NCBI GenBank assembly: GCA_002712765.1
Contig: PAUP01000054.1
Coordinates: 1-33,461, forward strand
Reading direction: 5' to 3'
DNA: 33,461 nucleotides
DNA from: Cytophagaceae bacterium
GTDB lineage: Bacteria; Bacteroidota; Bacteroidia; Flavobacteriales; Flavobacteriaceae
A program made the translations under genes and the position numbers. Positions 3,306-14,650 of this stretch are shown here, piece after piece; positions within the stretch are counted from its first letter, which is position 1, and the number at the start of each line of letters is the position of its first letter. Under the pieces are notes generated by a model. That model was not told where the DNA came from, ran no database searches, and saw nothing but the letters and a program-made list of their open reading frames with translations.

Positions 3306-4820
<1,515 letters not shown>

Positions 4821-4855
4821 TAAATGGGTAATGGTGCTTGAGCGAGGTTTGTAAC

Positions 4856-4871
4856 CGCTTTCGCGAAAGCG
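4856..4871. repeat. Dispersed palindrome copy 1, CGCTTTCGCGAAAGCG (between atpD and atpC)
   Basis: A perfect 16-base palindrome in the 69-base gap between atpD and atpC. As RNA it can fold into a 6-base-pair stem with a CGCG loop. It ends 18 bases before the atpC start codon. Confidence 0.85.
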
Positions 4872-4889
4872 CACTCAAAAACAATAGAT

Positions 4890-5168
4890 ATGCATTTAGA
4901 AATTGTAACTCCTGAAGCTTCATTAGTAAGCGGCGAAGTCACTTCGGTGACGGTACCGGGAATGGATGGAGAATTCCAGATGTTAAATAATCACGCGGCT
5001 ATTGTAGCCTTGCTCGTTGAAGGAAAAGTATCTTTTGATGGCAATCCTACTATCGCCGAAGGATTTGAAAATAAGTTTGTCAAAGAAGCTAGCGGTAAAT
5101 GGTCGCTTGAAATTTCGAGCGGAACCGTTGAGATGAATAACAACAAAGTTATCGTCCTAGCCGACTAA
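4890..5168 (+). CDS. atpC: F1Fo ATP synthase subunit epsilon, short form
   Basis: The sequence begins MHLEIVTPEASLVSGEVTSV and continues with VPGMDGEFQMLNNHAAIVALL, the conserved beta-sandwich domain of epsilon. At 92 residues it stops after that domain and lacks the two-helix C-terminal domain that makes E. coli epsilon about 139 residues. The frame stops cleanly at a TAA followed by a terminator, so this is not a frameshift. Short epsilon subunits occur in other Bacteroidota. The protein should still link gamma to the c-ring, but cannot make the helical C-terminal inhibition known from other bacteria. Confidence 0.93.
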   Translation: MHLEIVTPEASLVSGEVTSVTVPGMDGEFQMLNNHAAIVALLVEGKVSFDGNPTIAEGFENKFVKEASGKWSLEISSGTVEMNNNKVIVLAD

Positions 5169-5188
5169 GACAAGAATCAACAACTATA

Positions 5189-5224
5189 AAAGCCCAAAAT
5201 CGATGCCGATTTTGGGCTTTTTTT
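5189..5224 (+). terminator. Rho-independent terminator after atpC
   Basis: Left arm AAAGCCCAAAATCG (5189-5202), loop ATGC, right arm CGATTTTGGGCTTT (5207-5220), then TTTT. The 14-pair stem is perfect. It begins 21 bases after the atpC stop. The convergent M61 peptidase gene ends at 5232, so the A-rich left flank could let it work in both directions. Confidence 0.9.
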
Positions 5225-5231
5225 ATGGAAT

Positions 5232-7013
5232 TTACTTTTTACCTAGCCAAGCTTTTCTCGCCTCCAAAGCGGCCTTACTAGGGTTGGGATCTAGCGCAAT
5301 ACTATAGGTTGGATCACTTGTAAGGGTTAAGGTAGTCTCTTGTGTTTCTCCAAATCGCATATAGCGCACTGAGACCTTATCACCTGGCTTTTTGCCTTCC
5401 AACCACTGCTCATAAGCTGCTTTGGTCATAAGCTCCTGATCGTCTATAGCGGTAATGATATCGCCTTTATCCAGCATTGCCTTGTAAGCAGGTGTATGCA
5501 AGGTCGTAGTTGCAGCTATTTGCAAACCTGTAGCTGTTTCTGTAAGGCGTAAGCCCGAAAAAGGGGTGTTGTCGTTGCGTTCTAAGCGAAGCCCAACAGT
5601 TTTAAACAGACCGTCATAATCTGGCATGCCGCTTTTATAAATGTAGGAGTCAAAGTAGGCTTTCGCGAAAGCGTTACCCGCATAATCTGCCAGCACCTGC
5701 TCTAGATCATTAACGGTATAAGCCACTTCGTTCTGACCGTGTTTTTCCCACACCTTTCTAAAATAAGTATCCAGATCGAGTCCTTTTTGACGCAGGCTCA
5801 AATCTAAAGCGAGGCCAAGCATACTGCCGTAGGAATAATAGGAGATAAAGGTATTGCCTCTATTTACAGGATCTACCGAGGTGGCCGCGTCTACAAAAGG
5901 CGCCTGATAACTCATCTCTATAGGATTAAAAAAATCTCTTGCGGGTGAGTTCCACACATAATTAAAAGTGCCATTAAGACGCTGTGCATAGGTAGAATCT
6001 GTAATAATTTGAGCACGCCGCAGCATTAGATTGGTGTAGTAACTGGTAAAGCCTTCGGCAAACCAAAGTGAGGCACTCATATTGGCAGCCGTAAAATCAA
6101 AAGGCTCTAAATCTGCAGGGCGTATGCGTTCTACATTCCAACTGTGAAAAAACTCATGGGCTACTGTACCAAGGTTGCGTTGCATCCCTCCACCTGCCAA
6201 GGTGCGGCTCGTGGTCAAAATAGTACTGTTGCGATGTTCCATGCCATCACCAGAAACATTAGGATCATAACAGGCCAAAAAGGTGTACCTGCCATAATCA
6301 AAATTGGGTAGTGACCCAAAGACTGCTTTTTCTTGCAGTACAAGGGCCTGCACCTGTTTCCAATACTGATCGAGATCTGCTTGGGTGTCTGGACCGTGCA
6401 GCACAAAAGCTATGGTCTGTCCATCTACGGTAAAACTACGCTCTTTAAAATTACTTAGCTCTGTAGGACTATCTAAAAAGTAGTACAGATCTGGAGCACT
6501 ATAGCGAGTGTCGCTTATTTTTTTGAGCTGGGTGGCCACTTTCCATTGGCTGTCTTTAGGAAGGTCAAACTCAATTTCGATAGGACGGGCTTCTGTAGAT
6601 TCCAAATACATAAAAGTTGCTGGCATATTGAGATGGGCGTGGGCAGTATTGATCTGAGAGTAAGTGCCGTCGGCTCTGTTGGCAAAAAGCGTATATGAAA
6701 CCGTCACTGTACCGTCGTGACCAGAAATAGTCCAAGAGTAAGGATCTTCACGTCGTATAGAAAGTGCTTCTCCTTTGCCATTAACAGCGTTGACCTCATA
6801 AACATTTTTGGCAAATTCGTGTAAGGCATAACGACCAGGAGAGGTGCGAGGCATGCGCACCACAACTTGGGCTTGTTTAATGTTTGGAAAATGAGCGGTG
6901 ATATTGGCCTGGTGATGTACGGCATTGTCAAAACTTACCGTATAGGTATTGGTTTGTGCCCAACTTGCCAGACTCAAAGACAAAAGACTACAAAAAATTA
7001 AGAATATTCGCAT
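5232..7013 (-). CDS. Secreted M61-family metallopeptidase with PDZ domain
   Basis: Zinc aminopeptidase of the M61 (glycyl aminopeptidase-like) family. With the ATG at 7013 it has 593 residues and a clear signal peptide, MRIFLIFCSLLSLSLASWAQ; a longer frame to 7079 would bury this signal. Residues 286-290 are HEFFH, the HExxH zinc site, and E320 in WFAEGFTSYY is the likely third ligand. The upstream GMEHRNST segment is typical of M61. The C-terminal part (about 480-580), containing KGDIITAIDD and GKKPGDKVSVRYMR, is a PDZ domain. It probably acts in the periplasm or at the surface. A palindrome copy lies inside the gene and is read as AFAKA. It is divergent from bioF with an 82-base gap. Confidence 0.92.
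   Translation of the reverse strand: MRIFLIFCSLLSLSLASWAQTNTYTVSFDNAVHHQANITAHFPNIKQAQVVVRMPRTSPGRYALHEFAKNVYEVNAVNGKGEALSIRREDPYSWTISGHDGTVTVSYTLFANRADGTYSQINTAHAHLNMPATFMYLESTEARPIEIEFDLPKDSQWKVATQLKKISDTRYSAPDLYYFLDSPTELSNFKERSFTVDGQTIAFVLHGPDTQADLDQYWKQVQALVLQEKAVFGSLPNFDYGRYTFLACYDPNVSGDGMEHRNSTILTTSRTLAGGGMQRNLGTVAHEFFHSWNVERIRPADLEPFDFTAANMSASLWFAEGFTSYYTNLMLRRAQIITDSTYAQRLNGTFNYVWNSPARDFFNPIEMSYQAPFVDAATSVDPVNRGNTFISYYSYGSMLGLALDLSLRQKGLDLDTYFRKVWEKHGQNEVAYTVNDLEQVLADYAGNAFAKAYFDSYIYKSGMPDYDGLFKTVGLRLERNDNTPFSGLRLTETATGLQIAATTTLHTPAYKAMLDKGDIITAIDDQELMTKAAYEQWLEGKKPGDKVSVRYMRFGETQETTLTLTSDPTYSIALDPNPSKAALEARKAWLGKK
5659..5672. repeat. Dispersed palindrome copy 2 (inside the M61 peptidase gene)
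   Basis: Perfect 14-base core GCTTTCGCGAAAGC. In the minus-strand reading frame it is translated as Ala-Phe-Ala-Lys-Ala within GNAFAKAYFD. It is followed on the plus strand by GTTAC, the same flank as the bioA copy. Confidence 0.8.
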
Positions 7014-7083
7014 AAGTGCTGTTTTGTATAAAAATAGGGAAGTCGGGTCAATAGTCCATACGGGAGATGTCAAAAGCAAAAAG

Positions 7084-7095: not shown

Positions 7096-8253
7096 ATGTT
7101 ACCACCAAAACTTCAAAAAAAGTTAGCAGCCCGAGTCAAAAATGACAGCTTGCGTAGCTTAACACAAAGCAGTGAGCTGGTTGATTTGGCCTCCAATGAT
7201 TATTTGGGCCTTTCTAAAGTACCTGAAATTGCCAAGACAGCATCTACGTTGCTCAAAGCGCAAAAGCAAACGGCACATGGGGCTGGTGGGAGTAGACTCT
7301 TAACAGGCAATCACAGTTTATATCCTATTTGTGAGCAAACCGTAGCCTTGTTTCACAATCGTCAGAGCGCCTTACTTTTTAATAGCGGCTATGATGCCAA
7401 TATTGGGTTTTTTCAAGCTGTTTTACAACGAGGAGATATCATTCTCTTTGACCAATACATACACGCCAGTATAAGAGATGGTATACAAATGAGTCATGCC
7501 AAGGCGTATAAGTTTGCCCATAACCAACTCGATGATCTTGAGAAACAATGTCAATGGGCACGAGATAACAAAGCACCCGATGGCCAATTGTATATCGTTA
7601 CCGAAGCTGTTTTTTCTATGGATGGCGATAGCCCAGATCTCAAAGCCATTGCCCATCTGGCTACACGGTACCAGGGGTTGTTAATTGTAGATGAAGCGCA
7701 TGCTACAGGCGTATTGGGCAAAAAGGGCGAAGGATTGGTAGCACAATTAGGACTGGAAGATCAAGTGTTTGCTACGTTGGTCACTTTTGGAAAAGCCATG
7801 GGGGTTCACGGTGCTGCAATACTAAGCGATTATGATCTTAGAACCTATCTCATAAATTTTGCCAGATCCTTGATTTACACCACAGCGCTCCCACCGCATT
7901 CGGTGGCAATGATTGTGGCCGCCTATCGGTATTTGGGCGCTCAAGGCAGCTCGGTTTCTCCCGTTGCCCAATTAGAGCAATACATCACCTATTTTAAACA
8001 ACAAATAACCGCCTTTCAATTAGAGGCCTATTTTATAGCGAGTGATTCGGCCATTCAGGTGGCCGTTATTCCTGGGGTAGATCGCGTTAAAGCGCTTTCG
8101 CGAAAGCTGGAACAAAAAGGATATGATGTTAAACCTATTCTTTCTCCTACGGTAACCGAAGGACAGGAACGGCTGCGTTTTTGTTTACATAGTTTTAATC
8201 GTCCCAATGAGTTTAGAGACGTACTGCAAGCGGTTGCCAAGGCCTTGATGTAG
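7096..8253 (+). CDS. bioF: 8-amino-7-oxononanoate synthase
   Basis: PLP enzyme that condenses a pimeloyl thioester with alanine to give 8-amino-7-oxononanoate (KAPA), the first ring-assembly step of biotin synthesis. The ATG at 7096 gives 385 residues, the usual family size. Visible motifs are SNDYLGLS, HGAGGSRLLTGN, the HASIRDG segment, DEAHATGVLGKKG (199-211) and the PLP-lysine region TFGKAMGVHGAA with K233. An open frame extends 49 codons upstream, but that extension overlaps the divergent peptidase and its promoter. A palindrome copy near the 3' end is read in a different frame (ALSRKL). It starts the biotin cluster. Confidence 0.95.
   Translation: MLPPKLQKKLAARVKNDSLRSLTQSSELVDLASNDYLGLSKVPEIAKTASTLLKAQKQTAHGAGGSRLLTGNHSLYPICEQTVALFHNRQSALLFNSGYDANIGFFQAVLQRGDIILFDQYIHASIRDGIQMSHAKAYKFAHNQLDDLEKQCQWARDNKAPDGQLYIVTEAVFSMDGDSPDLKAIAHLATRYQGLLIVDEAHATGVLGKKGEGLVAQLGLEDQVFATLVTFGKAMGVHGAAILSDYDLRTYLINFARSLIYTTALPPHSVAMIVAAYRYLGAQGSSVSPVAQLEQYITYFKQQITAFQLEAYFIASDSAIQVAVIPGVDRVKALSRKLEQKGYDVKPILSPTVTEGQERLRFCLHSFNRPNEFRDVLQAVAKALM
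8094..8107. repeat. Dispersed palindrome copy 3 (inside bioF)
   Basis: Perfect 14-base core, extended at the left to CGCTTTCGCGAAAGC. Here the bioF frame reads it as Ala-Leu-Ser-Arg-Lys-Leu rather than AFAKA, so retention is not tied to one peptide. Confidence 0.8.
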
Positions 8254-8325
8254 CCCCTTAGATACAGGTGAGTAAAATGCCCAAATGAAATCACAAAGCA
8301 TATCGAAATTCTAGCACATCTTTGG

Positions 8326-8333
8326 TATTTTTG
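8326..8333 (+). promoter_or_regulatory. -7 box for bioD (TATTTTTG)
   Basis: Exact TAnnTTTG match, 19 bases before the bioD ATG at 8353, in the 99-base gap after bioF. It suggests bioD has its own transcription start. Confidence 0.5.
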
Positions 8334-8352
8334 ATACGTAAAACCAAAACCT

Positions 8353-8973
8353 ATGTCATCATATTTTATCACAGGCATATCTACCGAGGTAGGTAAAACT
8401 GTAGCCGCAGCCATTGTCACAGAGGCCTTGCAAGCCGATTATTGGAAACCCATACAGGCAGGTGATTTGGATCATTCGGATACGCACAAGGTTAAGGCTT
8501 GGGTAAAAAATGATATATCGCAATATCACGATAATGCATTTGCTTTACAGACTCCTATGAGTCCGCATGCAGCGGCAGCTATTGATAAGGTGCATATAGA
8601 TACCACTGTAATTAAACGCCCAAAAACCAAAAATAAGCTGGTTATTGAAGGCGCTGGAGGTATTTTGGTACCTATAAATGATCGGGAAACCATACTCGAT
8701 TTGATACACCCCTCAGATAAGGTCATTGTGGTGTCCCGACATTATTTGGGCAGTATTAATCATAGTCTAATGACCATCAAGACACTACAAGATCGCAATA
8801 TTCAAGTGGCAGGTATCCTATTTTCTGGCGCCGAACATCCCACAACCGAGTCTATAATAGAAAAGATGAGTGGTGTCCCAGTCATTGGCCGTATAGACGA
8901 AGAACCCTTTATAGATGCTAATGTAGTAAGTGAATATGCGGCCAGGTTTTCAAAGCAACTACAGCAACTCTAA
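8353..8973 (+). CDS. bioD: Dethiobiotin synthetase
   Basis: ATP-dependent carboxylase that closes the ureido ring of 7,8-diaminononanoate to dethiobiotin. The 206-residue protein begins MSSYFITGISTEVGKTVAAA; residues 8-16 are the P-loop (GxxTxVGKT type) of the family. VIEGAGGILVPIN is the conserved EGAGG nucleotide and metal-binding segment. The C-terminus has PVIGRIDEEPFID, typical of BioD. It lies between bioF and bioA, all on one strand. Confidence 0.95.
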   Translation: MSSYFITGISTEVGKTVAAAIVTEALQADYWKPIQAGDLDHSDTHKVKAWVKNDISQYHDNAFALQTPMSPHAAAAIDKVHIDTTVIKRPKTKNKLVIEGAGGILVPINDRETILDLIHPSDKVIVVSRHYLGSINHSLMTIKTLQDRNIQVAGILFSGAEHPTTESIIEKMSGVPVIGRIDEEPFIDANVVSEYAARFSKQLQQL

Positions 8974-9016
8974 CGCAATAGATGGCTGTTTGCTCAGCCG
9001 TCATAAGATCAATCCC

Positions 9017-9024
9017 TACCTTTG
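9017..9024 (+). promoter_or_regulatory. -7 box for bioA (TACCTTTG)
   Basis: Exact TAnnTTTG match 15 bases before the GTG start of bioA. A TTG at 8990-8992 lies 24 bases upstream and may be the -33 element. Confidence 0.6.
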
Positions 9025-9039
9025 TAAAAAATCAATGCC

Positions 9040-10305
9040 GTGAGTATTTCTGAACTTGACGCCAAACACATCTGGCATCCTTTGACTCAGCACCATACCA
9101 GTAGCCCGCCAATTCCTATAAAATGTGCCTCTGGCGCTGTATTATATGCCGAGGATGGTCGGGAGTTTATCGATGGGATTGCTTCTTGGTATACGGCGGT
9201 TTATGGGCATTGTCATCCAGATATTATCAAGGCGGTTAGTGAGCAAATGCAACAGCTCGATCAAGTAGTATTTACTGGTTTTACCCACGCCCCTGCTACA
9301 AAGCTAGCCCAGAAACTATTTGAGATATTACCGCCCAATCAACAAAAAATGTTTTTTAATGACAACGGCTCTACCGCAGTAGAGGCCGGTATTAAAATGG
9401 CGTTGCAATACCATCATAACAAAGGTCAAAAACGCAAGGTACTTATCGCATTAGAAGATGGTTTTCACGGCGATACCTTTGGGGCTATGTCTGTAAGTGG
9501 ATTGTCTGTATACAATGGGCCTTTTGAAGATTATTTTTTAAAGGTGGTGAGAATACCTACGCCCAAAGGTGCCAATAATGAGCAGGTAGCCAGCACACTC
9601 CAAGAGCTTATCGCCACTCATGATTGCGCTGCTTTTGTCTATGAGCCATTGGTTCAAGGCGCAGCAGGAATGAAGATGTATGATGCTGCGGGTCTTAGCC
9701 TACTTCTCGATATATGTAAAGCCAAAGACATTATCACCATCGCCGATGAGGTTATGACAGGTTTTGGTAAGACAGGGAAACACTTTGCATCCTTGCATAT
9801 CAATACTTATCCTGATATAATGTGTCTTAGTAAAGCACTTACGGCCGGTATGTTGCCTATGAGTTTAACTACCTGTTCTCAACATATTTATGATGCATTT
9901 TTGGATGAGGAAGTGACCAAAGGTTTTTTTCATGCCCATACCTACAGCGCCAATCCTTTAGCCTGTACCGCAGCTATAGCGGGTATAGATTTGTTGTTGA
10001 GCACTGGGATACAGGAACGCATAAAAGCTATTGAGCAGCAGCACCACGCTTTCGCGAAAGCGTTACTGAAGCATTCCAAGGCAAGCGGGGTACGTGTAAA
10101 AGGTGTTATTCTAGCCTTAGAACTGGAGGTAACCATGGAACGTTATGGCCAAAAACGGCAAGCGCTCTACGATTACTTTATGGATCTAGGAGTATGCTTA
10201 AGACCGCTGGGAAATACTATTTATGTACTGCCGCCCTATGTGATCACCGATACTCAATTAAAAAAAGTGTATACGGCAATAGAAAACGCCTTAGATCACT
10301 TCTGA
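9040..10305 (+). CDS. bioA: Adenosylmethionine-8-amino-7-oxononanoate aminotransferase
   Basis: Class III PLP aminotransferase that uses S-adenosylmethionine as amino donor to convert KAPA to 7,8-diaminononanoate. The 421-residue protein carries WHPLTQHHT (12-20), DGIASWYTAVYGHCHP, FNDNGSTAVEAGIKMA, DGFHGDTFGAM, the PLP aspartate in IADEVMTGFGKTGKHFA (D236) and the PLP lysine in CLSKALTAGMLP (K265). Translation starts at GTG 9040: the nearby ATG at 9035 is out of frame and hits a stop at once. A palindrome copy is translated as AFAKA around residue 338. The 3' end overlaps the convergent Coa1-like gene by 10 bases. Confidence 0.95.
   Translation: MSISELDAKHIWHPLTQHHTSSPPIPIKCASGAVLYAEDGREFIDGIASWYTAVYGHCHPDIIKAVSEQMQQLDQVVFTGFTHAPATKLAQKLFEILPPNQQKMFFNDNGSTAVEAGIKMALQYHHNKGQKRKVLIALEDGFHGDTFGAMSVSGLSVYNGPFEDYFLKVVRIPTPKGANNEQVASTLQELIATHDCAAFVYEPLVQGAAGMKMYDAAGLSLLLDICKAKDIITIADEVMTGFGKTGKHFASLHINTYPDIMCLSKALTAGMLPMSLTTCSQHIYDAFLDEEVTKGFFHAHTYSANPLACTAAIAGIDLLLSTGIQERIKAIEQQHHAFAKALLKHSKASGVRVKGVILALELEVTMERYGQKRQALYDYFMDLGVCLRPLGNTIYVLPPYVITDTQLKKVYTAIENALDHF
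10047..10062. repeat. Dispersed palindrome copy 4, CGCTTTCGCGAAAGCG (inside bioA)
   Basis: Perfect 16-base palindrome read as Ala-Phe-Ala-Lys-Ala in HHAFAKALLKH of BioA. The right flank GTTAC matches copy 2. Confidence 0.85.
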
Positions 10306-10757
10306 TCAATTGTCATTGGGTCTAAAGAGATTACCTGCTCTGTACCTTCGACATATACCTCAATTTTTTCATAGGTTAAGGTTTTGTCCTTGCCCAAGGT
10401 GATGAGATCAATAAGCGCCTCTCCATCGGGTCCTGAGATGCCAATGGTAACATGATTGCTGCGATCGCCGTTGTTAATTTTAATATTAAAGGTCTTAACC
10501 CCATCAGATGTAATAGGTGTACCAATGGCGTCTATAACCTCTTGATTTTGTTGCACCGCTTCGACCACTGGTTCATAACCCATATCTTCTTTAATTCCTT
10601 CGGCAAAAGAGTATAAACCTCCTACGACCACGACAATGGCAATGGTAATAATCGTTAGGCAACCTCCTGCGGGTAGCGCCCATTTCCAATTGCGTTTCCA
10701 CCAGCTAGGGGGTTTTACTAATTCATTTTGGTTGTCATAGTGTATATTTTGATCCAT
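10296..10757 (-). CDS. Coa1/Tim21-like single-pass membrane protein (paralogue 2)
   Basis: A 153-residue protein with a short N-terminus, the motif WWKRNWKWALPAGGCL, one membrane helix and a soluble C-terminal domain. This layout fits the Coa1/Tim21 group (cytochrome oxidase assembly factor 1 family), members of which occur in Bacteroidota. It is a tandem paralogue of the gene at 10782-11213: both share the WW-RNWKWALP-GGCL motif and a Q-N-EV-G-PI pattern after the helix. Its stop overlaps the end of bioA (TCACTTCTGA, 10296-10305) in convergent orientation. A role in oxidase assembly is only suggested by family resemblance. Confidence 0.65.
   Translation of the reverse strand: MDQNIHYDNQNELVKPPSWWKRNWKWALPAGGCLTIITIAIVVVVGGLYSFAEGIKEDMGYEPVVEAVQQNQEVIDAIGTPITSDGVKTFNIKINNGDRSNHVTIGISGPDGEALIDLITLGKDKTLTYEKIEVYVEGTEQVISLDPMTIDQK
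10660..10703. repeat. Direct repeat unit A of the tandem Coa1-like genes
   Basis: This 44-base stretch matches 11140-11183 at 40 of 44 positions. It encodes the WW-RNWKWALP-GGCL segment in both genes. The 480-base offset equals one gene unit, indicating tandem gene duplication. Confidence 0.8.
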
Positions 10758-10781
10758 AAAAGAAGTGTGTTGTGTTTTTTT

Positions 10782-11213
10782 CTACTGCTCAATTTGATCG
10801 GTGAGGTCAATGACCTGCTGGCTGTCATCAACGGTAACGGTGATGAGTTCATAGACCCATTGCTCATCAATTTTTCGGGCAATGACTTTAAGGGTGCCAT
10901 CGGCAGCTGTACCATCCAAATCAATTTCTAGATTCATTTCTTCTGGAGACCCCATAGGATCATAACCCTCGGCACGTATTTCGATAGGTTTACCCAATAC
11001 CTCGCCTACTTCTTCATTTTCTTGAACGGTTTTAATCACTTTGGCGAAAGCAAAAATGGAGGAGTTATTAGAAAATTTATCGGTCACTTTGTAAACACCA
11101 TAAGCTACCATAGCAACAAAGATGATTATGATGGTCAAACAACCTCCTGTAGGAAGCGCCCATTTCCAATTGCGTTGCCACCAATTTCTGTGATCCCCTT
11201 CTAGTGTATTCAT
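10782..11213 (-). CDS. Coa1/Tim21-like single-pass membrane protein (paralogue 1)
   Basis: A 143-residue protein starting MNTLEGDHRNWWQRNWKWAL, then PTGGCL, a membrane helix, and a soluble domain with VQENEEVGEVLGKPIEIRAEG. The pattern matches its neighbour at 10296-10757, with a 24-base gap, so the two are probably co-transcribed. It contains a degenerate palindrome copy (11038-11051) read as AFAKV; the aligned part of the neighbour has no such sequence. The pair separates bioA from the ketoacyl synthase gene and points against the biotin genes. Confidence 0.65.
   Translation of the reverse strand: MNTLEGDHRNWWQRNWKWALPTGGCLTIIIIFVAMVAYGVYKVTDKFSNNSSIFAFAKVIKTVQENEEVGEVLGKPIEIRAEGYDPMGSPEEMNLEIDLDGTAADGTLKVIARKIDEQWVYELITVTVDDSQQVIDLTDQIEQ
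11038..11051. repeat. Degenerate palindrome copy (inside Coa1-like paralogue 1)
   Basis: ACTTTGGCGAAAGC matches the 14-base core at 12 of 14 positions and is followed by AAAAA. In frame it reads Ala-Phe-Ala-Lys-Val. Possibly a decayed copy. Confidence 0.4.
11140..11183. repeat. Direct repeat unit B of the tandem Coa1-like genes
   Basis: Partner of 10660-10703, differing at four of 44 positions. See that entry. Confidence 0.8.
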
Positions 11214-11318
11214 ACTGTATTGATATGTTGATGTCAGATAAGTTGCAAAAGGAATGCAACTGTTACAATCCTATTCAATAAAAATACATTTTATTTAAGA
11301 CGTCCTTAGCGGAAGTAC

Positions 11319-11326
11319 TATTTTTG
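11319..11326 (+). promoter_or_regulatory. -7 box for the biotin-cluster ketoacyl synthase (TATTTTTG)
   Basis: Exact TAnnTTTG match. It overlaps a possible TTG start at 11324, which favours the later TTG at 11348 as the true start, giving a leader of roughly 15-20 bases. Confidence 0.55.
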
Positions 11327-11347
11327 TACTACTCAACGCGATTATTT

Positions 11348-12505
11348 TTGAAAACACCCATTGCAATTACTGGTATAGCAAGTTTGTCTGCCCTAGGTGA
11401 GACTAAAGCAGCACATGAGCTGGCATATAACAATGACCAAAGCGCGATTGTTTGGGATAAGACCTTATCGGCTTTCACAGCACCCCTTACTCAAAAAGCC
11501 AAGCAAGAGATTGATAAGTTGGCGGCGCAAAACGGGCATTATAAACGACTGGATCCTGCCGTTTTATACGGTATTTATTGCGGGCGTTTGGCCATTGCAG
11601 AGGCTGGATGGCGTGATGGTCAATTTGGGATCAATGTGGGTTCTTCTCGCGGGGCTACCCAACATTTTGAACAGTATCACGCTCATTTTATAGAAAACGC
11701 ATATGCGCCTACGCTGAGTTCTCCACACACTACCTTGGGCAATATTTCGTCATGGCTAGCACACGATCTCAAAAGTGAGGGGCCCGATATTTCGCATTCG
11801 ATAACGTGTAGCACAGCCTTACATGCGGTCTTAAATGGCGTGGCTTGGTTAGCATCTGGAATGGTTACTAGATTTCTGGTGGGTGGTACCGAGGCTGCGC
11901 TCACACCCTTTACCATTGCCCAAATGAAGGCGATGAAACTAACTCCAAATCAACAAACTAACTCCAACTACCCTTGTCAAACCCTCACCAATGGGAAAGC
12001 ACAAAATACAATGGTTCTAGGAGAGGGTGCTGCGATGATTTGTTTAGAAGCCAAAATTACAAACACGGCCTTGGCGTATATCAAGGGTTTAGGCTATGCC
12101 ACCGAGGTATTGCAACATTCGGTGTCTCTATCGGCAGAGGGAGACTGTTTTCAAAAAGCGATGACAGCGGCTTTGGCCATGGCCCAACTCACTAAAGTAG
12201 ATGCCATTGTCATGCATGCTCCCGGAACGATCAAAGGTGATGCTTCAGAGCTGGCTGCCATTAAAGCTATTTTTGGAGGGGATATGCCTTTTTTGACCAG
12301 TAATAAATGGAAATTGGGTCATACCTTTGGCGCCAGTGGTGGTTTGAGTCTGGCCATGGCGATACATATGTTACAATCACAACAAGCCATTACTATTCCT
12401 TTTATAAAAGCTCAGCCAATGCCCAAGCAACTTGATACAGTAATGGTTAATGCTGTTGGTTTTGGAGGTAATGCGGTGAGTGTCATAATTTCCAGAACAC
12501 CTTAA
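11348..12505 (+). CDS. FabF-like beta-ketoacyl synthase in the biotin cluster
   Basis: A 385-residue thiolase-fold condensing enzyme beginning MKTPIAITGIASLSALGETK from a TTG codon. The Cys-His-His triad of FabB/FabF-type enzymes is intact: C154 in SITCSTALHA, H290 in VMHAPGTIKGDASE and H325 in KLGHTFGASGG; K320 is the usual lysine. GFGGNAVSVI near the end corresponds to the FabF GFGGTN loop. It differs from housekeeping FabF in being short, in having HAPGT where HGTGT is usual, and in SITC replacing the common TACA. Its place between bioA and bioB suggests a role in making the pimeloyl chain, but this is inference. A general fatty-acid or polyketide role cannot be excluded. Confidence 0.85.
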   Translation: MKTPIAITGIASLSALGETKAAHELAYNNDQSAIVWDKTLSAFTAPLTQKAKQEIDKLAAQNGHYKRLDPAVLYGIYCGRLAIAEAGWRDGQFGINVGSSRGATQHFEQYHAHFIENAYAPTLSSPHTTLGNISSWLAHDLKSEGPDISHSITCSTALHAVLNGVAWLASGMVTRFLVGGTEAALTPFTIAQMKAMKLTPNQQTNSNYPCQTLTNGKAQNTMVLGEGAAMICLEAKITNTALAYIKGLGYATEVLQHSVSLSAEGDCFQKAMTAALAMAQLTKVDAIVMHAPGTIKGDASELAAIKAIFGGDMPFLTSNKWKLGHTFGASGGLSLAMAIHMLQSQQAITIPFIKAQPMPKQLDTVMVNAVGFGGNAVSVIISRTP

Positions 12506-12556
12506 GCGCTACTTAGACCCAATATATTTAACAAAAAAGAAGTGGTATTTTTTTTC

Positions 12557-12570
12557 GCTTTCGCGAAAGC
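12557..12570. repeat. Dispersed palindrome copy 5 (bioB promoter region)
   Basis: Perfect 14-base core, extended left to CGCTTTCGCGAAAGC and followed by AAAAC. It ends 15 bases before the TATTTTTG box of bioB, so it covers the expected -33 region. Confidence 0.8.
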
Positions 12571-12585
12571 AAAACAGCTTTTTAC

Positions 12586-12593
12586 TATTTTTG
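12586..12593 (+). promoter_or_regulatory. -7 box for bioB (TATTTTTG)
   Basis: Exact TAnnTTTG match ending 4 bases before the bioB ATG, predicting transcription that starts at or next to the start codon. Confidence 0.6.
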
Positions 12594-12597
12594 AAGC

Positions 12598-13686
12598 ATG
12601 AGTGAGATACGACACAACTGGACCAAGGAAGAAATTTTAGCCATTTACAACAAACCTTTAATGGAGCTCCTTTACGAGGCGGCTACGGTGCATCGCTTGC
12701 ATCACGATCCTAATACGGTTCAAGTATCAACCTTATTGTCAATCAAAACTGGCGGTTGTCCAGAAGATTGCGGGTACTGCCCTCAAGCGGCGAGATACCA
12801 CACCGATATTGAAGGTAATGACCTGATGTCTGTACAACAGGTAAAGGCACAAGCATTACGTGCCAAGTCATCTGGAAGTTCAAGAGTTTGTATGGGTGCT
12901 GCATGGCGCAATGTAAAAGACGGGCCAGAATTTGATAATGTATTGGAGATGGTACGCACCATCAACAAGCTAGACATGGAAGTGTGTTGTACCCTTGGTA
13001 TGGTCACAGAGAATCAGGCCAAACGCCTAGCCGAAGCTGGTTTGTATGCATACAATCACAATCTGGATACCTCAGAAGACTATTATAAAGATGTCATTTC
13101 GACTCGTGCCTTTGAAGATCGACTAGATACTATAGCCAATGTGCGTAAGACTAACGTTACTGTGTGTAGTGGAGGAATTATTGGTATGGGAGAAGCCTTA
13201 GAAGACCGAGCAGGAATGCTAGTTGCCTTGGCCACTTTAGATCCACAACCCGAATCTACGCCTATCAATGCGCTTGTCGCAGTACCAGGCACCCCTATGG
13301 AAGAGATTGAACCTGTTTCTATTTGGGATATGATTAGAATGGTAGCTACCACACGTATTGTCATGCCCCAAACCCAAGTGCGTTTGTCTGCCGGGCGTAC
13401 CGACATGTCTCGAGAAGGACAAGCGATGTGTTTCTTTGCCGGAGCTAATTCTATTTTTGCTGGAGACAAACTCCTTACGACCCCCAATCCAGATGTCAAT
13501 GAAGATATGAAGATGTTTGAACTCTTAGGATTGACACCCATGAAACCTTTTGTCAAAAAGGCCCAACCCGAAACTGTTGAAGCCAAGGATTCAAACTTGC
13601 AGCCCTTAGGCGAAAAGCCCAAGTGGACTCGTCCTGGCCACACGATCGAGCGTAACGAAGAAGCGCGATTAACGCGATCTAAATAA
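12598..13686 (+). CDS. bioB: Biotin synthase
   Basis: Radical-SAM enzyme that inserts sulfur into dethiobiotin to make biotin. The 362-residue protein has the [4Fe-4S] cysteines C54, C58 and C61 in GGCPEDCGYCPQAARYHT. The ligands expected for the second cluster are visible: C98 (RVCMGAAWRN), C130 (VCCTLGM), C190 (VTVCSGGIIGMGE) and R262 in VRLSAGR. ALVAVPGTPME and MCFFAGANSIFAGDKLLTT are standard BioB segments. The last 50 or so residues are a poorly conserved tail. It closes the biotin cluster and has its own promoter box. Confidence 0.98.
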   Translation: MSEIRHNWTKEEILAIYNKPLMELLYEAATVHRLHHDPNTVQVSTLLSIKTGGCPEDCGYCPQAARYHTDIEGNDLMSVQQVKAQALRAKSSGSSRVCMGAAWRNVKDGPEFDNVLEMVRTINKLDMEVCCTLGMVTENQAKRLAEAGLYAYNHNLDTSEDYYKDVISTRAFEDRLDTIANVRKTNVTVCSGGIIGMGEALEDRAGMLVALATLDPQPESTPINALVAVPGTPMEEIEPVSIWDMIRMVATTRIVMPQTQVRLSAGRTDMSREGQAMCFFAGANSIFAGDKLLTTPNPDVNEDMKMFELLGLTPMKPFVKKAQPETVEAKDSNLQPLGEKPKWTRPGHTIERNEEARLTRSK

Positions 13687-13786
13687 TAATAAGAGATAGC
13701 TTGACATCCTTGTCGTTGTCAAACTGTTTATGCCCATTGTTTACGCAAAGGCGCATAATCAGGGCTTATTCTCGTTTATCAGAAGT

Positions 13787-14650
13787 ATGCAGTTAAATCC
13801 TATAGAGAGAGTAGATCGTATTGGCCGTAAGGAGTTTCGCGAGCGCTATGTCAAGCCGCAAAAACCTGTGGTGATTAGACACCTCATAGACGATTGGCCT
13901 GCTTATGACAAATGGTCTTTAGAATATATAAAAGAGATCGCCGGAGATAAAGAAGTACCTCTATATGACGATCGCCCTGTGTCACATGACGAAGGGTTTA
14001 ATCAGGCGCATGCCACGATGCAAATGGCAGATTATATCGAGTTGCTCAAAAGAGAACCTACACAGTACCGCATCTTCTTGTACAATTTGATGAAGGAGGT
14101 ACCACAGCTCAAGTCAGATTTTAAATTTCCATCGATTGGATTGCGATTGCTCAAACAGATACCTATGTTATTTTTTGGTGGGACCAACAGCAAGGTATTT
14201 ATGCATCACGATATCGACTGGGCCAATATCCTACATTTTCACTTTGAAGGTAGAAAGCAATGCATACTTTTTGCGCCAAGCCAGACCAAACATTTGTATA
14301 AAGTACCTCACTCCTTGATCACGCGAGAAGATATCGACTTTGACCATCCCGATTATGAACGTTTTCCCGCTTTAAAAGAGGCTCAAGGACACATTTGTCA
14401 TCTCAATCACGGGGAGACGCTCTATATGCCAGAGGGGTACTGGCATTATATGAAATATGAAACCCCTGGTTTTAGTATGAGTTTACGCGCGCTTCCGCGA
14501 AATCCAAAACATTTGCGTTATGCTTTATACAATGTTTTTGTGATGCGTCATTACGACAACTTTATGCGACGCCGCAAGGGGCAGGCTTGGATAGACGAAA
14601 AAAATAAGCGTGCTATCCTTGAGACCCATAAGGCATTAGGGATTGCCTAA
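13787..14650 (+). CDS. JmjC/cupin_8-type Fe(II)/2-oxoglutarate oxygenase
   Basis: A 287-residue cupin-like protein of the JmjC-hydroxylase group. The early segment YVKPQKPVVIRHLIDDWPA is typical of cupin_8 proteins. The predicted iron ligands are H140 and D142 (FMHHDID) and H220 (GYWHYMKY); K157 in FEGRKQCILFAPSQ is positioned like the 2-oxoglutarate lysine. These residues suggest an active hydroxylase with an unknown, possibly protein, substrate. I chose ATG 13787 over the in-frame ATG at 13730 because family homology begins there. It follows bioB by 100 bases on the same strand and may be co-expressed with it; no direct link to biotin is evident. Confidence 0.85.
   Translation: MQLNPIERVDRIGRKEFRERYVKPQKPVVIRHLIDDWPAYDKWSLEYIKEIAGDKEVPLYDDRPVSHDEGFNQAHATMQMADYIELLKREPTQYRIFLYNLMKEVPQLKSDFKFPSIGLRLLKQIPMLFFGGTNSKVFMHHDIDWANILHFHFEGRKQCILFAPSQTKHLYKVPHSLITREDIDFDHPDYERFPALKEAQGHICHLNHGETLYMPEGYWHYMKYETPGFSMSLRALPRNPKHLRYALYNVFVMRHYDNFMRRRKGQAWIDEKNKRAILETHKALGIA

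Follow-up and report, generated by a model that had tools for sequence, protein, structure and literature searches.

A FabF-like condensing enzyme as a probable, not yet described source of the biotin pimeloyl chain in Flavobacteriaceae

How is the pimeloyl chain of biotin supplied in a bacterium whose biotin cluster comprises the late-stage genes and none of the early ones? Biotin pathways vary in the source of this chain, a part that is often missing, and the question is raised here by contig PAUP01000054.1 of a Cytophagaceae bacterium (assembly GCA_002712765.1, Flavobacteriaceae in the GTDB lineage), of which the whole analysed stretch of 33,461 nucleotides is referred to as the window. The window features the gene order bioF-bioD-bioA-[KAS]-bioB, all on the plus strand, in which KAS denotes a FabF-like 3-ketoacyl-acyl carrier protein (ACP) synthase. 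A reading made from the letters of this DNA alone, referred to below as the original prediction, had pointed to a full set of late-stage genes and to the lack of early-pathway genes in the window. Both statements were borne out, with bioF scoring below its curated cut-off yet having the BioF model as its top match. In our view, the KAS is a dedicated KAS II-type 3-ketoacyl-ACP synthase which supplies the biotin pimeloyl chain in place of BioC and BioH or BioG, a reading to which we assign a probability of roughly 70%. The setting among bio genes, the occurrence only in genomes in which known precursor genes such as bioC and bioE were not found and a conserved arginine are the reasons why the enzyme probably builds the seven-carbon precursor of biotin by a route that is not yet described.

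Occurrence among biotin genes and apart from known early-pathway genes

The source genome is a draft of 2.77 Mb in 107 contigs with a completeness of 78%, and because of this incompleteness relatives were examined as well, giving a set of 59 genomes (the source genome and 58 relatives). Among the matches listed, members of Dokdonia were the nearest named relatives. In the source genome, the best BioC score is 51.7 bits, under the cut-off of 184.95. The KAS is present in 38 of the 59 genomes, 36 of which also possess bioD; the two without it are the incomplete genomes G001 (85%) and G002 (76%). Only three bioD genomes lack the KAS (G020, G039 and G052), the remaining 36 all having it. In the entire set, BioC exceeded the cut-off solely in G020 (203.8 bits), which has no KAS and features the operon bioB-bioA-bioF-BioG-BioC-bioD. 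In G039 and G052, bioF is directly preceded by a gene of 207 residues, and a divergent MocR-type regulator is present; as this matches the BioE-BioL arrangement described in the available part of PMC12915131, the gene is read as a putative BioE on the basis of operon arrangement. Regarding the genome-wide search for bioC and bioW proposed in the original prediction, BioC was over the cut-off in none of the 38 KAS genomes (top score 83.4 bits) and BioW was found in none of the 59 genomes, so that a route via BioW was ruled out. We know of no role for BioH without BioC, and alpha/beta hydrolases are generic.

The phylum-wide survey, in which the same 345 genomes were searched for KAS, bioD, BioC and BioE, shares G018, G039 and G052 with the relatives set (G000 apart). 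BioC was accepted at E ≤ 1e-25, and the BioE query was chosen by operon order and the divergent MocR gene rather than by its match to the published sequence. KAS scores were bimodal, with 31 genomes at E ≤ 1.6e-73 and the next best at 6.0e-48. All 31 belong to the 158 genomes with bioD over the cut-off. BioC was found in 104 genomes, whose best scores ranged from 98.7 to 239.3 bits, and BioE in 11, and the pairwise overlap between KAS, BioC and BioE was zero; hence, 0/31 KAS genomes contained BioC at this threshold and 0/31 contained BioE. The 158 bioD genomes accordingly split into 31 with KAS, 89 with BioC, 11 with BioE and 27 with none of the three. On the profile scores of the source genome, the relatives and the phylum set, a hidden BioC was rejected. 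Within the family of the window, KAS and bioD coincide fully: 27 genomes possess both, and in the other 12, which have no KAS, bioD does not exceed the cut-off. Fisher tests gave p = 5e-12 overall and p = 3e-10 within the family, with relatedness ignored, and some independence comes from G096, G222, G234 and G102, the four genomes that carry the KAS outside this family. The replacement of BioC and BioH by the KAS is well supported, and the separate KAS II-like solution for pimeloyl supply suggested in the original prediction came through most of the checks proposed with it, no BioC being found in either set of KAS genomes.

Among the 27 bioD genomes without any of the three genes, 15 were sampled and the layouts of 13 examined. 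In G130, a KAS III gene (PF08545/PF08541) overlaps a bioA homolog (locus L134, about 4396-7025), which is a BioZ-like arrangement. Complete-looking clusters of bioB, bioF, bioD and bioA occur at L125, L131 and L138, again in genomes without BioC, BioE or KAS at the thresholds used.

The position of the KAS next to biotin genes was followed in several sets of loci, which overlap one another. A same-strand bioA, bioB, bioD or bioF lies near the KAS in 34 of 36 loci of the relatives (29 within 1 kb), in 26 of 29 phylum loci with flanks of only 1.5 kb and in all four distant outliers (three within 1 kb). Likewise, all 80 loci of the genome_contigs set, viewed with 4.5-kb flanks, feature such a gene (73 within 1 kb); these loci are the closest to the query and in part shared with the relatives, and their linkage is not independent. 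As for the three phylum loci without such a gene, L114 is a short form of the outlier L117, and G210 and G359 have bioD about 4 to 5 kb away on the same contig. The outliers differ in their gene order: L117 reads bioB, bioF, bioD, bioA, two small open reading frames (ORFs) and KAS, and L118 reads bioB-bioF-bioD-bioA-KAS, with bioA placed between bioD and KAS by tblastn, while the KAS ORF overlaps bioF in L119 and bioA in L120. The linkage between KAS and bio genes survives changes in gene order as well as phylogenetic distance. The combination named in the original prediction as refuting a separate solution, a bioC-bioH pair elsewhere in the genome together with a KAS located away from bio genes, did not turn up in the genomes searched for BioC.

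Enzyme class, acyl pocket and proposed reaction

In Pfam, the KAS matches PF00109 and PF02801 only, and the KAS III (FabH) domains PF08545/PF08541 are not matched, which agrees with the original assignment as KAS II-like and distinct from the KAS III enzyme BioZ. Nineteen NCBIfam models match the protein, all below their own cut-offs; the top one, fabF, gives 125.7 bits where 493.75 are required. In an alignment of 26 orthologs, Cys162, His298, His333 and Lys328 (counted from the ORF start at 11324) and the GFGG loop do not vary. These four residues and Phe380 correspond to FabF Cys163, His303, His340, Lys335 and Phe400 and are unchanged in 56/56 rows of the larger alignment. The Cys-His-His set predicted for the cluster is consequently intact and of the KAS II catalytic type, not the Cys-His-Asn triad of BioZ. 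A tree was built from 34 KAS family members, 24 Bacteroidota paralog rows and Escherichia coli FabF, and it includes some long branches. A branch supported at 100/100 separates the whole family from the FabF paralogs; the paralog rows represent 23 genes, one gene being present twice. The AlphaFold2 model of the KAS (mean predicted local distance difference test score 89.1, predicted template modelling score 0.91) fits FabF structures with TMq values of 0.84-0.89 among the matches listed. The nearest solved structures are those of ordinary KAS II enzymes, with about 19-25% identity in the structure matches.

The most distinctive feature is found in the acyl pocket, which was compared on sequence. 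The position of FabF Ile108 is occupied by arginine (Arg109 in the window) in 55 of 55 distinct KAS genes, vs. Ile, Val or Thr in all 24 paralog rows. The 55 genes were found by whole sequence and make up 56 rows, as the window was entered twice; the 80 genome_contigs loci were excluded from this count because one of the search patterns includes the arginine. Moreover, the position of FabF Phe202 holds Met in 128 of 136 rows of the KAS family, Ile or Val in six and Phe in two, and FabF positions 111, 138, 162 and 201 (Leu, Ile, Ala and Gly in FabF) hold Thr at the first three and Gln at the last in no fewer than 55 of the 56 rows. The pocket is formed by the dimer interface. In FabF, residues 108 and 202 gate the acyl pocket according to the accessible part of PMC7138838, and the I108F exchange in FabF places a residue inside the acyl-binding pocket according to the portion available of PMC3996569. 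For BioZ, excerpts of PMC8024396 propose that the free carboxylate of glutaryl-CoA is neutralized by Arg147 and two serines. By analogy, Arg109 may contact the omega-carboxylate of the substrate.

Sequence comparison thus shows that the gene is linked to bio genes, that it and BioC or BioE exclude each other, that the catalytic residues are conserved and that the arginine is invariant. From these observations we infer the following reaction, the contact between arginine and carboxylate, and the primer. A short dicarboxylic acyl thioester would acylate Cys162, with its free omega-carboxylate held by Arg109 at the FabF Ile108 site. His298, His333 and Lys328 would then drive the decarboxylative condensation with malonyl-ACP, and the resulting 3-keto group would be reduced by the ordinary FabG/FabZ/FabI enzymes, leading to pimeloyl-ACP as the substrate of BioF. 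Arg109 could also bar longer or uncharged chains and thereby halt elongation at C7. As the product must be C7, the primer would be either a C5 glutaryl unit (glutaryl-coenzyme A [CoA] or glutaryl-ACP, one turn) or a C3 malonyl unit (malonyl-ACP, two turns), of which glutaryl is rated slightly more likely.

In E. coli, the methyl ester introduced by BioC and removed by BioH hides the carboxylate from the hydrophobic pocket of the ordinary KAS enzymes, and this pocket is the reason why BioC and BioH exist. With an arginine in the acyl pocket, such a mask should not be needed. It is conceivable, although less likely than not, that undecarboxylated malonyl-ACP primes a lone KAS II-type enzyme, which performs two turns and delivers pimeloyl-ACP as a free dicarboxylic chain. 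If so, Arg109 would take over the part that methylation by BioC plays for the carboxylate in E. coli, and a methyltransferase and an esterase would be replaced by one gene. This would then be the main biotin route of the Flavobacteriaceae, obtaining its primer from ordinary fatty acid synthesis with no need for lysine breakdown.

Weighing the competing explanations

Several points weigh against a pimeloyl-supplying KAS. The expectation that the gene is kept only beside bio genes held for the large majority of the relatives and failed at L062 and L066, where no bio gene lies near the KAS and bioD is located elsewhere in both genomes. As 27 of the 31 KAS genomes in the phylum set stem from one family, phylogeny confounds the p-values of co-occurrence. 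The list of routes is incomplete, though the exclusion is clean, because 27 of the 158 bioD genomes have neither KAS, BioC nor BioE at the thresholds used. In addition, scoring was limited to the best first-look candidates of each genome (five for KAS, seven for BioC), so that a very divergent copy of either could be missed. BioE occurs in some Flavobacteriaceae according to the part of PMC12915131 at hand, whereas it was found in 0/39 same-family genomes of the phylum set. BioZ-like KAS III genes, sought with the KAS III of L134, were absent from the KAS loci (0/36, 0/80 and 0/4 in the relatives, genome_contigs and outlier sets), and a genome-wide BioZ search was not made.

The alternative that survives best is a sub-case of the proposed function, namely the exact chemistry of BioZ, with glutaryl-CoA obtained from lysine breakdown via a CaiB-type CoA transferase as primer. 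The precedent of BioZ itself (PMC7645780, in excerpt) speaks for it, as does the distribution of the saccharopine dehydrogenase C-domain (36/38 KAS genomes vs. 14/21 others), which is weakly in favour of a glutaryl primer in general and confounded by phylogeny. However, the CaiB-type transferase occurs in just 5/38 KAS genomes, and G044, which is 92% complete and contains KAS and bioD, matches neither CaiB nor saccharopine dehydrogenase. CaiB-supplied glutaryl-CoA was therefore ruled out as a general primer source. These findings count against a glutaryl primer as well, and the exact BioZ chemistry appears unlikely.

Less probable still is a masked route, in which an unrecognised methyltransferase and an esterase make and unmask a malonyl-ACP methyl ester and the KAS is merely the elongase of the methyl-ester chain. 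KAS I and KAS II enzymes are established to extend such a chain in E. coli, and the genomes harbour many generic methyltransferases, e.g., the one behind the 51.7-bit BioC match of the source genome. Nevertheless, BioC scores in the 38 KAS genomes stay at or below 83.4 bits, clear of the range of the 104 phylum genomes with BioC, none of which has the KAS, and an uncharged methyl ester is poorly suited to the invariant pocket arginine. Of the starters considered in the original prediction, glutaryl stays a candidate, as does free malonyl, while malonyl methyl ester is now unlikely because BioC was not found and the pocket arginine is invariant.

It is very improbable that the KAS is linked to the biotin cluster with another job, e.g., a regulatory or lipid role. 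Linkage by itself does not give function, and the two loci with the KAS away from bio genes fit this explanation. Still, KAS and bioD are present or absent together throughout the family (27 genomes with both, 12 with neither), the linkage persists across rearrangements and in the distant outliers, and the KAS genomes are without BioC, without BioW (59/59 genomes) and, in the phylum set, without BioE, BioZ having been searched at the loci and not genome-wide. Least probable of all is an oxidative route in which a BioI-like cytochrome P450 or another oxygenase cleaves long acyl chains, with the KAS providing or shortening the precursor: P450 (PF00067) matches in 30/59 genomes, the source genome included, and the Cupin_8 protein following bioB in near relatives would suit it, but the P450 match is absent from 11/38 KAS genomes, by which the P450 route was rejected as not universal, no Cupin_8 homolog adjoins bioB in five more distant KAS clusters, BioE and KAS never coincide in the 345 genomes, and the altered pocket is unsuited to long chains.

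Gene neighbourhood and comparison with known systems

The features of the locus are compiled in Table 1. For the KAS, the longest ORF starts at 11324 and the TTG at 11348 was judged the likelier start; 92 bases separate the gene from bioB. As two small minus-strand genes split bioA from the KAS, KAS and bioB are likely to form an operon in this window. Neither of the small genes is thought to be a pathway member, and homologs of the Coa1-like one occur at the equivalent site in many near relatives. Likewise, the Cupin_8 (JmjC-like) gene 3' of bioB is common in near relatives. It was dropped as a pathway member since no homolog adjoins bioB in the five more distant KAS loci L061, L065, L067, L068 and L069. 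Many relatives further possess a small protein between bioF and bioD (cluster c0, 15 members, e.g., L042:11637-12053), which is not found in the window.

Table 1. Features of the biotin locus, with positions in the window.
Feature	Position	Strand	Supporting match
bioF	7096..8253 (ATG start)	+	TIGR00858, 328.2 bits, top NCBIfam model, below curated cut-off of 426.45
bioD, dethiobiotin synthase	8353..8973	+	TIGR00347, 110.8 bits, above cut-off of 83.3
bioA, 7,8-diaminopelargonic acid aminotransferase	9040..10305	+	TIGR00508, 535.2 bits, above cut-off of 405
Small gene between bioA and KAS	10296..10757	-	No Pfam match
Small Coa1-like gene between bioA and KAS	10782..11213	-	PF08695
FabF-like KAS, proposed condensing enzyme for pimeloyl supply	11348..12505	+	PF00109 and PF02801
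bioB, biotin synthase	12598..13686	+	TIGR00433, 397.1 bits, above cut-off of 225
Cupin_8 gene 3' of bioB	13730..14650	+	PF13621, 122 bits

Besides, the perfect 14-base palindrome GCTTTCGCGAAAGC is present in six exact copies in the 33.5 kb, at 4857, 5659, 8094, 10048, 12557 and 29833. With one mismatch allowed, seven copies are found (adding 30109), compared with 0.01 in shuffled sequences. Some copies lie in intergenic DNA and others inside bioF and bioA, and the element presumably resembles a HIP1-type highly iterated palindrome.

Among the matches listed from the open-access literature (titles and beginnings of abstracts, with most subscription papers outside this range), no KAS II-type enzyme with pimelate supply as its dedicated role was named, and none is described in the available excerpts of PMC9909488, PMC9859067 and PMC6168606. 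Riemerella is presented as lacking bioC, bioH, bioI and bioW in the excerpt of PMC6168606. In a marine survey, Gammaproteobacteria and Flavobacteria are counted as primary biotin producers by means of the last four genes (PMC9561691, in part), which leaves the flavobacterial pimelate source open. If the proposed function is correct, one gene would account for prototrophy in many Flavobacteriaceae and could serve as a marker separating biotin makers from auxotrophs. KAS relatives are encoded by at least 579 stretches in species genomes, a number referring to stretches and not to genomes.

Four known systems allow for a comparison. Like BioC with BioH or BioG, the KAS would yield pimeloyl-ACP via fatty acid synthesis and fills the equivalent slot in Bacteroidota genomes, but the former pathway masks and unmasks the carboxylate as a methyl ester, and BioC and KAS were never found together in the genomes searched. 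The BioE route of Elizabethkingia, Chryseobacterium and Chlamydia is likewise an early-stage replacement tied to bioF/bioD within the Bacteroidota. It differs in cleaving long acyl chains, as stated in the portion of PMC12915131 available, and the BioE-type gene and the KAS exclude each other in the 345 genomes. With FabF and other KAS II enzymes the protein shares the fold, the Cys-His-His set, the equivalent of Lys335 and the GFGG gate. Unlike these, it forms a separate clade of low identity (about 19-25%), far below the NCBIfam fabF cut-off, carries arginine for Ile108, mostly methionine for Phe202 and several polar pocket positions, and has bio genes as neighbours at 34 of the 36 relatives loci.

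The closest parallel is BioZ, which is likewise a condensing enzyme encoded next to bio genes where the genome has neither BioC nor BioW and for which a primer with a free omega-carboxyl group, met by a pocket arginine, is also proposed. BioZ occurs in Agrobacterium, Rhizobiales and a few others and is a FabH-like KAS III enzyme with a Cys-His-Asn triad that is primed by glutaryl-CoA, for which Agrobacterium uses a CaiB-type transferase according to the accessible part of PMC7645780. The enzyme of the window, in contrast, is a FabF-like KAS II with a Cys-His-His set and the domains PF00109/PF02801. Since the two belong to different KAS types, the KAS would be an independent, convergent solution, and the recruitment of a condensing enzyme to pimelate supply from another KAS class than that of BioZ is probably new. 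This would be the second time that a condensing enzyme was independently recruited to the step, with the charge being neutralized by the enzyme itself instead of by methylation, an idea that is testable with one residue.

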